A DNA stretch of 56,741 bases. Source: Trueperaceae bacterium. GTDB lineage: Bacteria > Deinococcota > Deinococci > Deinococcales > Trueperaceae. The position numbers and the translations under genes were made by a program. Positions 1,910 to 4,461 of the stretch are shown here, in pieces (position 1 is the stretch's first letter; each line of letters opens with the position of its first letter). The notes beneath the pieces were generated by a model that worked only from the letters and a program-made list of their open reading frames with translations, made no database searches and was not told the DNA's origin. The stretch is from contig JACCWH010000127.1 of the NCBI GenBank assembly GCA_013697735.1, positions 1-56,741 of the forward strand, in the 5' to 3' direction.

Positions 1910-2371
1910 CTAGGCGGGGGCGGGCCCGCGAGCGCGTCGCGCCGCAAGCGCCAAGCGGTCGACGGCTTCGTTGGCGTCGTGCCCCGCGTGCCCCTTGGTC
2001 CACGTCCAGTGCACGTCGTGGTGGTCGGCGAGTTCGAGGAGTCGGAGCCAGAGGTCCTTGTTCTTGACCGGCTGCTTACCCGAGGTTCGCCAGCCGTTGC
2101 CTTGCCAGGCGTCGAGCCAGCCGTGGGTGAAGGCCTTCTTGAGGTACTGGCTGTCGGTGACGAGCGTGACACGGCACGGCTCGGTGAGCGCCTCGAGGGC
2201 GCGCACGGCGGCCGTGAGCTCCATGCGGTTGTTGGTGGTGCCGGCTTCGTACCCGCTCGCGGTCCGCTGGTGCCCGCCGTACTCGAGGAGGTAGGCCCAG
2301 CCGCCGTGGCCCGTCTGGGTCTCACAGGATCCGTCGGTGTGGACGCTCACGTGCTTCGTTCCGTTCGTCAT
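1910..2371 (-). CDS. rnhA: Ribonuclease HI
   Basis: Degrades the RNA strand of RNA-DNA hybrids (R-loops, lagging-strand primers). The protein is 153 aa, the usual RNase HI length. The DEDD catalytic set is complete: D13 in HTDGSC, E51 in NNRMEL, D73 in VTDSQYL and D138 in NEAVD, with the conserved H128 in KGHAGH. The basic-protrusion Trp residues (GNGWRTSGKQPVKN) are present. ATG 2371 is preceded by TAGCAT six bases upstream, so the mRNA is probably leaderless. It is divergent from litR, with about 107 bp between the two starts. It ends two bases from the M20 gene, with which it converges. Confidence 0.95.
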   Translation of the reverse strand: MTNGTKHVSVHTDGSCETQTGHGGWAYLLEYGGHQRTASGYEAGTTNNRMELTAAVRALEALTEPCRVTLVTDSQYLKKAFTHGWLDAWQGNGWRTSGKQPVKNKDLWLRLLELADHHDVHWTWTKGHAGHDANEAVDRLALAARRARGPAPA

Positions 2372-2377
2372 CGGGGC

Positions 2378-2383
2378 ATGCTA
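2378..2383 (-). promoter_or_regulatory. -10 element TAGCAT of rnhA (leaderless)
   Basis: TAGCAT on the minus strand, followed by six bases (GCCCCG) and the ATG at 2371. It lies only 10 bp from the -35 box of the divergent litR promoter, so polymerase binding at the two promoters could interfere. Confidence 0.6.
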
Positions 2384-2392
2384 CCGCGGGAC

Positions 2393-2421
2393 TTGACGTG
2401 GCGCTTCCCGGCGGCTATCTT
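2393..2421 (+). promoter_or_regulatory. litR promoter (TTGACG - 17 bp - TATCTT)
   Basis: Near-consensus housekeeping promoter. The -35 TTGACG is at 2393-2398, followed by a 17-bp spacer and the -10 TATCTT at 2416-2421. Predicted transcription start is around 2428, leaving a leader of about 50 nt with GGAGG at 2468-2472 before ATG 2479. The last two bases of the -10 box are the first two bases of the operator repeats. Confidence 0.75.
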
Positions 2422-2452
2422 GTACAGAGGTTGTACAGAGACTACACACGGA
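2420..2452 (+). promoter_or_regulatory. CarH/LitR-type operator: three 11-bp direct repeats
   Basis: Three consecutive units in exact 11-bp register: TTGTACAGAGG (2420-2430), TTGTACAGAGA (2431-2441) and CTACACACGGA (2442-2452). The third is degenerate but keeps the TACA core at the same phase. Thermus CarH is known to bind tandem 11-bp direct repeats as an AdoCbl-assembled tetramer, with each MerR-type domain on one repeat. The repeats cover the end of the -10 box and the start site, so binding in the dark would repress litR itself (autoregulation), with release in light. Assignment to LitR rests on this architecture and on adjacency. Confidence 0.7.
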
Positions 2453-2478
2453 CCCCCTGCGGGAAGTGGAGGCGCTCG

Positions 2479-3378
2479 ATGGCGGACGGTAAGTACACGG
2501 TCAACGAAGTCGAGGAGCGCACGGGCGTGCCGGCAACCACGCTGCGGCAGTGGGAGCGTCGCTACGGCGTCCCGAAGCCGGAGCGATCGCACTCCGGGTA
2601 CCGCCTCTACTCCGACGACGACCTCGACGACATCCGCTCCATCAAGTCCCACGTCGACGACGGTGTCCCGGCGTCGCGCGCCGCCGCGTTGGCGCGGCGT
2701 CCCGCCGACACTCCCTCGAGCGGTCCCCGACCCATCGACGCGCTGCGCAGCACGCTCGTCGAGGCGCTCGTCGCGTTCGACGAGGCCCGAGCCGATCGTG
2801 TACTCGCCGAGGCCCACTCGCTCCACGGCGTCGAGGACGTCATGCTCGACCTGATGCAAGGCGCCATCGTCGACATCGGCGAGCTCTGGCACGAGAGCAA
2901 GATCGCCACCACCACCGAACACTTCGCCTCCGCCTACCTCCTCGGACGCCTCCGCCAGATCATGATGTACGCCGGGCAGTCGCGCAACGGAGCATCGGTG
3001 ATCGTCGCCTGTGCGCCGCATGATCAGCACGACATCGGCGCGATGATGCTCGCCGTGATGCTGCGCCGCGCCGGGTTCCAGGTCTACTACGTCGGGGCCA
3101 ACACGCCCGTCCTCGACCTCGCCGCAATGGCGCAGCACGTCCACCCCACGGCCGTGCTGATCTCCGCCTCCTCCGTCGACGCCGTCCACCAACTGATCGA
3201 GGGGCGCGAGCACCTTCGCGGCATCGCCCCGGTCCTCGCGCTCGGCGGCAACGGGTTCAACGCCGATCCGCGCCGCGCGGAACTCGTCGGCGGCATCTTC
3301 CTCGCCGACAACGTCCGCGACGCGACCCGTCGCCTCCAGGAGCTCGTGGACGGGATCGGGACGGGGGCGGCCGCATGA
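2479..3378 (+). CDS. litR: LitR/CarH adenosylcobalamin-dependent photoreceptor repressor
   Basis: MerR-family light-responsive repressor, 299 aa. Residues 6-75 are the winged HTH (YTVNEVEERTGVPATTLRQWERRYG). The middle four-helix bundle carries the CarH signature W-x9-EH (W137, E147, H148), which caps the upper face of AdoCbl. The C-terminal cobalamin-binding domain has the D-x-H-x-x-G motif (DQHDIG, H184 as lower Co ligand). In CarH, dark AdoCbl-bound tetramers bind DNA; light breaks the Co-C bond and the tetramer. ATG 2479 is chosen because GGAGG lies six bases upstream and because promoter and operator occupy the region further up. ldrP follows on the same strand, as in Thermus. No carotenoid or photolyase gene lies within the window, so the targets besides itself and ldrP are unknown. 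Confidence 0.92.
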   Translation: MADGKYTVNEVEERTGVPATTLRQWERRYGVPKPERSHSGYRLYSDDDLDDIRSIKSHVDDGVPASRAAALARRPADTPSSGPRPIDALRSTLVEALVAFDEARADRVLAEAHSLHGVEDVMLDLMQGAIVDIGELWHESKIATTTEHFASAYLLGRLRQIMMYAGQSRNGASVIVACAPHDQHDIGAMMLAVMLRRAGFQVYYVGANTPVLDLAAMAQHVHPTAVLISASSVDAVHQLIEGREHLRGIAPVLALGGNGFNADPRRAELVGGIFLADNVRDATRRLQELVDGIGTGAAA

Positions 3379-3490
3379 CCGCCACGCCCCCGGGCCACGC
3401 CACGCCCTCCTCGTCCCTCGCAATCCATACCCCGCCCGACGCGATCACGACCAACGCGATCTCGTCCCTGTTCCCCCAGGAGGTCGCACC

Positions 3491-4093
3491 GTGAGCGTCA
3501 CGTACCCCGTCCAGACCCTGAACTACACCCGTCGGCAGACGCTCTACCACAACGGCGACCCGGCCCAATCGGTGTTCCGCGTTCGCGACGGCCTGGTCAG
3601 GATCACCCGGATGACGCCCGAGGGGCGCGTCATGACCGTCCGGCACGTCCTGCCGGGCGACTTCTTCGGTGAGGAGGCGTTCATGGATGGGAACCGCGAG
3701 GAGATCGCCGAGGCGCTCACGAACGCACAGATCGAAGCGATCGACCCGGCGATGATCAACCACGTCGAGCTCATGGAGATCACGCGATCGCTCTCCCATC
3801 AGATGCAGCGCCTCATGGACTACGAGTACCACCTGCAGACGGGCGACCTTCGCCAGCGCGTCGCGCGGTACCTGCTCGAGCTCTCCGGAACCCCGCTGGC
3901 GCGCCGCGACGAGACCGGTCGACCGATCATCTCCGCGACCCACGAGCTACTCGCCGAAGGGACCGCCTCGACGCGCGAGAGCGTATCGAAGATCATCACC
4001 GATCTCCGTCAGGACGGGCTCATCGAGTCGGGCTACCGCAGCATCACGCTGGTCGACGTCGCCGAGCTGCAGATCACCGCGGACGGGTTCTAG
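3491..4093 (+). CDS. ldrP: CRP/FNR-family regulator, LdrP-like
   Basis: 200-aa transcription factor. Residues 15-120 form the cyclic-nucleotide-type beta-barrel and 140-195 the winged HTH (ASTRESVSKIITDLRQDGLIE recognition region). The phosphate-binding cassette is degenerate: PGDFFGEEAF is followed by REEIAE rather than the R-(S/T)-A of cAMP-binding CRP. Effector-independent activity is therefore likely, as reported for Thermus LdrP (TTHB099), which is controlled through LitR and activates carotenoid and photolyase genes. GTG 3491 has AGGAGG at 3478-3483, seven bases upstream. The 112-bp gap after litR shows no terminator, so cotranscription with litR is plausible. The name is by analogy of family and position; a DdrI-like general CRP regulator is the main alternative. 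Confidence 0.75.
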   Translation: MSVTYPVQTLNYTRRQTLYHNGDPAQSVFRVRDGLVRITRMTPEGRVMTVRHVLPGDFFGEEAFMDGNREEIAEALTNAQIEAIDPAMINHVELMEITRSLSHQMQRLMDYEYHLQTGDLRQRVARYLLELSGTPLARRDETGRPIISATHELLAEGTASTRESVSKIITDLRQDGLIESGYRSITLVDVAELQITADGF

Positions 4094-4098
4094 GCGCG

Positions 4099-4461
4099 TC
4101 AGGGACGCTCGATGACCACCACCGCGGCGGCGTGATCCTTCGAGTGCGTGAGCGAGAGGTGGACGGCGTAGCCGCGGGCGTCGATCTCTCGCCGAATCCC
4201 TTCGGCGAACTCGAGTCGCGGTTTCAGATCGTCGCGAACCACCCAGACGTCCTGCCAACCGTGCGCCTCGTGCCAGCACTTCTGGAACGCCTCCTTCGCC
4301 GCGAAGCGCGCTGCGATCGAGGGGAGCGGGTCGGCCTGAGAGCGGCAGAAGGTGATCTCCTCGGCCGTGAAGTGGCGATAGAGGAAGCGGTGCGGGTGGT
4401 TCTGCCACACGTGCTTGATGCGCACGAGTTCGATCATGTCGATGCCGATCGCGACGATCAC
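4099..4461 (-). CDS. acpS: Holo-[acyl-carrier-protein] synthase
   Basis: Transfers 4'-phosphopantetheine from CoA to a serine of acyl carrier protein, enabling fatty-acid synthesis. The protein is 120 aa, standard for AcpS. The N-terminal IGIDMIEL motif with Mg ligand D8 and the FAAKEAFQKC motif with E57 are both intact, as is the C-terminal SLTHSKDHAAAVVV strand. GTG 4461 is chosen because its GTGA overlaps the rpiA stop and the protein then begins directly with the conserved strand. It forms a two-gene operon with rpiA and converges on ldrP with only a few bases between the stops. Confidence 0.95.
   Translation of the reverse strand: MIVAIGIDMIELVRIKHVWQNHPHRFLYRHFTAEEITFCRSQADPLPSIAARFAAKEAFQKCWHEAHGWQDVWVVRDDLKPRLEFAEGIRREIDARGYAVHLSLTHSKDHAAAVVVIERP

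Follow-up and report, generated by a model that had tools for sequence, protein, structure and literature searches.

Deinococcota is the phylum common to the Trueperaceae and Thermus, and it is in Thermus that CarH is best understood. Our literature search found no account treating Truepera together with CarH. The litR operon of T. thermophilus consists of TTHB100-TTHB099-TTHB098; there ldrP follows carH, crtB is the divergent gene, and three tandem TnnACA repeats lie over the -35 element (PMC7662524, PMC9304148). The register used for CarH repeats in the literature is nnnnTnnACAn, with TnnACA as the core, and one full repeat with degenerate neighbours can suffice for CarH (PMC9304148). In the T. 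thermophilus protein (TtCarH) the AdoCbl-binding residues are W131, E141, H142 and H177, and the published light-responsive signature is composed of GxxW, EH, GxxH and GxxxP (PMC11796333). In Bacillus (Priestia) megaterium, which belongs to a different phylum, CarH acts on four 11-bp repeats, or three and a pseudorepeat, reported to overlap the -35 or the -10 (PMC9304148). Myxobacterial CarH/CarA operators have the TnnACA core and overlap promoter elements, mix full and degenerate repeats over ~55 bp (Cystobacterineae), and have the crt operon as a direct target. The sites of the Pseudomonas class II LitR proteins PplR1 and PmlR2 read TGTACA-N12-TGTACA (PMC9758184); their cores are spaced at 18 bp, and PmlR2 is paired with a LOV protein as light sensor rather than with AdoCbl.

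The locus described here lies in a stretch of 56,741 nucleotides from a Trueperaceae bacterium (contig JACCWH010000127.1), which we call the window; the genome is most likely metagenome-assembled. We consider it about 90% probable that positions 2393-2452 form the operator through which a B12-dependent CarH/LitR photoreceptor-repressor controls its own gene (Table 1). The locus resembles that of T. thermophilus in its three tandem TnnACA repeats, the CarH fold, the AdoCbl-binding residues and the ldrP gene after carH; it differs in that the array lies over the -10 and start site instead of the -35, and in that rnhA, rather than crtB, is divergent. It shares 11-bp repeats overlapping a promoter element with B. 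megaterium but has only three, the TnnACA core and promoter overlap with the myxobacteria, and the TGTACA core with Pseudomonas. The type of switch is already well known, and the carH operator adds a Trueperaceae case to it.

Table 1. Features of the carH region, with positions counted from the first letter of the window
Feature	Position	Strand	Basis
rnhA (RNase HI), divergent neighbour	1910..2371	-	conserved neighbour
-35 element TTGACG, carH promoter	2393..2398	+	direct read
-10 element TATCTT, carH promoter	2416..2421	+	direct read, promoter scan
CarH direct repeat 1, ATCTTGTACAG, core TGTACA 2421-2426	2417..2427	+	fits nnnnTnnACAn
CarH direct repeat 2, AGGTTGTACAG, core TGTACA 2432-2437	2428..2438	+	fits nnnnTnnACAn
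CarH direct repeat 3, AGACTACACAC, core TACACA 2443-2448	2439..2449	+	fits nnnnTnnACAn
carH/litR, MerR-type DNA-binding and cobalamin-binding domain, 299 aa	2479..3378	+	Pfam, PDB, AlphaFold
ldrP, CRP/FNR-family activator, 113 bp 3' of carH, presumed same operon	3491..4093	+	PDB, NF052518, linkage

The carH promoter and its repeat array

The two promoter elements, read directly, are separated by a 17-base spacer, and a scan of 2300-4200 for sigma-70-like sites returned this promoter alone, with 0.2 expected. The start is predicted from the sequence near 2428, seven bases past the -10, which gives a predicted leader of ~51 nt up to the ATG at 2479. The preliminary description had read TTGACG-N17-TATCTT followed without a gap by three 11-bp units, TTGTACAGAGG (2420-2430), TTGTACAGAGA (2431-2441) and CTACACACGGA (2442-2452). 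All of these elements are present, but the junction needs amending, as repeat 1 shares the TT at 2420-2421 with the -10. All three cores fit TnnACA in the published register, so that the third repeat counts as full, and T2421 is both the last base of the -10 and the first base of the first core. The region thus contains three full tandem 11-bp nnnnTnnACAn repeats (2417-2449) over the -10 of a sigma-A promoter. They span approximately -11 to +22 relative to the predicted start, in agreement with the earlier placement over the -10 and start site.

Large genomes do yield short repeats randomly. The window contains a single copy of the three-repeat pattern, and 100 shuffles gave none; in a motif search of the 3.52-Mb genome, TNNACA-N5-TNNACA-N5-TNNACA matched perfectly at this site and at no second one (reversed control, 0), and with a single mismatch it matched once, at C11:8755. 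The architecture is also kept in orthologues, whose promoters conserve the 11-bp spacing; this refutes a chance origin, the probability of which we regard as negligible.

This conservation was examined for 30 carH genes (that of the window and 29 from relatives), taking 150 bp upstream of each. Perfect TnnACA pairs at 11-bp spacing were found in 14 of the 30 promoters, against 0.10 expected from dinucleotide shuffles. Spacings of 8-10 and 12-16 bp gave 0 or 1 perfect pair; spacing 7 gave 6, largely consisting of the -35 TTGACA followed by a TnnACA inside the spacer. When pairs matching at least 7 of 8 positions were counted at 11 bp, 26/30 promoters had one, in comparison to 26 of 1,139 control windows from the same loci (2.3%); among spacings of 8 to 16 bp, none but 11 came near this in the 30 promoters. 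The preliminary description had made its reading depend on whether orthologous litR promoters have the repeats too, and they do, at this frequency. A TTGAC-N16-18-TAnnnT-like promoter is present in 27/30 orthologues. In one of these (L022) all three repeats stand just as far from the -35 as in the window (28, 39 and 50), and two others (L025, L026) have the first two repeats placed as in the window. Among the closest relatives (L013-L020) the layout is kept in degenerate repeats only, and the 7/8 pair is absent from the promoters of L014 and L017.

Repeats 2 and 3 lie inside the predicted leader, a position that would also suit an RNA element (hairpin or riboswitch) acting there instead of a protein operator. 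However, the Rfam matches in the window are three tRNAs only, with none at the leader, and the leader folds worse than its own shuffles (z = +1.7); we reject an RNA element, which is very unlikely, on both grounds.

The CarH-like protein, its neighbours and the predicted switch

The product of carH has three Pfam domains above cut-off, MerR_1 (PF13411), B12-binding_2 (PF02607) and B12-binding (PF02310), i.e., a MerR-type domain fused to a helical and a Rossmann cobalamin-binding domain. It matches the T. thermophilus CarH/LitR structures 3whp/5c8d with E ~1e-46. The AlphaFold model has a mean pLDDT of 90.6, and the PDB matches listed for it are CarH/LitR entries in 50 of 50 cases, including 5c8d/5c8e/5c8f. 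Most entries superpose on the cobalamin-binding part at 1.7-2.0 A; over the full length the fit is loose (5-13 A), as is expected when a low-confidence linker connects two domains. W137, E147, H148 and H184 align with all four AdoCbl-binding residues of TtCarH, and the hallmarks named in the preliminary description, W-x9-EH and DxHxxG, are found as W137-x9-E147-H148 and D182-x-H184-xx-G187. The light-responsive signature is represented by GxxW at 134-137, EH at 147-148 and GxxxP at 206-210; the GxxH position reads HDQH (181-184), and the G of this element is also variable in the family alignment. The DNA-binding segment LRQWERRY is identical to that of Thermus CarH and invariant in two alignments, of 25 and 30 sequences.

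Against the NCBI CarH equivalog NF052513 the protein scores 224 bits, below the cut-off of 400, which is a naming threshold and no biochemical criterion. One Thermus and one Calidithermus protein pass with 497 and 409, and another Trueperaceae protein also fails with 213, so the cut-off was apparently drawn around the Thermaceae. In an alignment-based scan the nearest named homologues, at 67% identity, came from Trueperaceae MAGs; Deinococcales MAGs, Meiothermus and Thermus came next. Judged by its sequence, modelled fold and predicted AdoCbl-binding residues, the protein is CarH-like.

CarA and CarH of M. xanthus share one operator (PMC8156234), and a B12-independent CarA-like repressor, relieved by another signal, might occupy the same repeats here. 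Wx9EH has been lost from two Trueperaceae carH homologues (L033 and L035), which means that B12-independent drift may occur in the lineage; the L035 promoter retains a perfect repeat pair, which suggests B12-independent repressors on a CarH-type operator. The protein of the window, by contrast, retains each of the four AdoCbl-binding residues, its modelled cobalamin domain has the Thermus CarH fold, and the genome encodes a cobalamin adenosyltransferase (PF01923; G000:C187:663-1160, minus strand), with which AdoCbl could plausibly be made from cobalamin. A CarA-like repressor is therefore unlikely at this locus.

The best PDB matches of ldrP are 3b02 (E 2e-53) and 5i2d, both of which we take to be Thermus TTHB099/LdrP; the NCBI LdrP model NF052518 gives 211 bits, below its cut-off of 300. 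The gene thus combines homology to Thermus LdrP with linkage to carH, a linkage found again in many relatives. Ortholog-strength carH and ldrP are both absent from five genomes (G001, G003, G005, G009 and G020), and the stretch separating the two genes contains nothing that resembles a terminator. Their linkage, their joint absence and the missing terminator make ldrP the most likely output of the switch. In these Trueperaceae genomes, one of which belongs to the same genus and is only 79% complete, carH and ldrP may have been lost together. In another relative (L041, G047:C5:3233-3672), the ldrP homologue beside carH gives two separate matches that overlap, and the gene may be frameshifted. 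The divergent rnhA occupies this position in 21 of 30 carH loci, with the window counted, and as far as can be seen lies outside the switch. On its strand a TAGCAT (2383-2378) ends six bases before the ATG at 2371, and the gene may be leaderless.

The TGTACA palindromes could be sites for the CRP/FNR protein LdrP, or for another MerR-type factor, and not for CarH. TGTACA-N5-TGTACA also reads as an inverted repeat, and LdrP of Thermus favours the 16-bp palindrome TGTA-N8-TACA (PMC7662524). Nevertheless, LdrP sites cover 16 bp (TGT-N10-ACA) and the TGT and ACA here are 11 bp apart; the strict LdrP pattern has a single genomic match, at another place (C179:1053) and without an obvious target downstream. 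Repeat 3 is not palindromic yet fits TnnACA, the conserved feature is the 11-bp direct spacing, and the sole full-length carH-like gene of the genome is the one downstream (2479-3378). Binding by LdrP or another MerR-type factor is accordingly quite unlikely.

Under the preferred CarH reading, AdoCbl-bound CarH would sit on the three repeats in the dark and prevent open-complex formation or promoter escape. Light would cleave the Co-C bond with loss of the adenosyl group, the CarH oligomer would disassemble and leave the DNA, carH-ldrP would then be transcribed, and LdrP would drive photoprotective genes elsewhere. From the protein family we infer the binding of AdoCbl and of DNA, release by light and the step that is blocked, and we also infer the oligomeric state, the repression at the -10, the co-transcription of carH with ldrP and the targets of LdrP. 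That the block falls specifically at melting, and not before or after it, we give about even odds.

Search for further targets in the genome

The preliminary description had proposed a genome-wide motif search to define a regulon; the search yielded none in this genome, as no strong CarH operator was found elsewhere in the 3.52 Mb. The assembly is a draft of 237 contigs, 96.5% complete; with a few per cent of the genome missing and with the tolerance of CarH for degenerate neighbours, weak operators may exist elsewhere. TGTACA-N5-TGTACA with two mismatches occurs at 9 sites per strand in comparison to 13 in the control, i.e., without enrichment. One site with three TGTACA-like units at 11-bp spacing, TACACATGATGTGTACACGCAGTGTATG (G000:C224:13759-13786), lies upstream of murA and divergent from a protein kinase gene; we dropped it as a CarH operator since the motif is no commoner than chance genome-wide.

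In relatives, perfect TnnACA triples are mostly TTATCCACA-type repeats resembling DnaA boxes, with tandem examples at G013:C38:6616, G014:C1:1566 and G044:C334:57220. With the same TnnACA core and 11-bp spacing, they confound searches for this motif; such DnaA-box-like arrays are a source of false CarH sites.

Unlike the Thermus gene, crtB lies on a separate contig (C187:7623-8492) without a recognisable operator: upstream of it there is no 10/12 triple, no 6/8 pair and no TGT-N10-ACA. A PF03441 match, weak and below cut-off, was all that pointed to a photolyase, and therefore no photolyase target is proposed. The adenosyltransferase gene (L045) immediately follows a CrtI/CrtD-type desaturase where the carotenoid cluster ends, and in seven relatives a desaturase homologue lies no more than 1.5 kb from the adenosyltransferase gene (L086, L090, L095, L096, L104, L107 and L108). 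This arrangement links the supply of the chromophore with carotenoid synthesis.

Operator position across lineages

Among 24 Trueperaceae (the window included), with promoters assigned from the sequence, repeat pairs start 28-42 bases after the beginning of the -35, over the -10 and start site, in 15, and lie at the -35 without a downstream array in 4. In Thermus, pairs are located at -11, 0 and +11 relative to the -35, i.e., over it, and Meiothermus is mostly alike; Calidithermus has pairs at both 0/11 and 34/45. The sharing of bases has a parallel, since the last T of the -10 is here the T of the first TnnACA core, and in Thermus the -35 TTGACA is itself a TnnACA. The 'textbook geometry' claimed in the preliminary description consequently holds for the 11-bp array and fails for its position, as the Thermus array includes the -35. 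A placement over the -10 has its precedent in the Bacillus CarH operators, which overlap either element.

Tentatively, an operator on the -10 and start site may be a lineage trait of the Trueperaceae, in which CarH and sigma would compete for T2421 and the open complex, rather than the docking of polymerase, would be blocked. As this is the only strong operator in the genome, light would in that case reach all other genes solely through LdrP. We regard this proposal as possible but doubtful.

The apparent lineage-level difference in operator position is the mildly interesting part of these comparisons; apart from position, the regulation would be of a well-understood kind. Together with their relatives, the Trueperaceae provide a natural set of promoters with the same repeats on the -35, on the -10 and start site, or, in Calidithermus, on both, which could be used to ask how the position of CarH alters repression and leakiness. 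For the family itself, the locus would carry the Thermus switch, which is known from experiment, over to a sister family that has been little studied.
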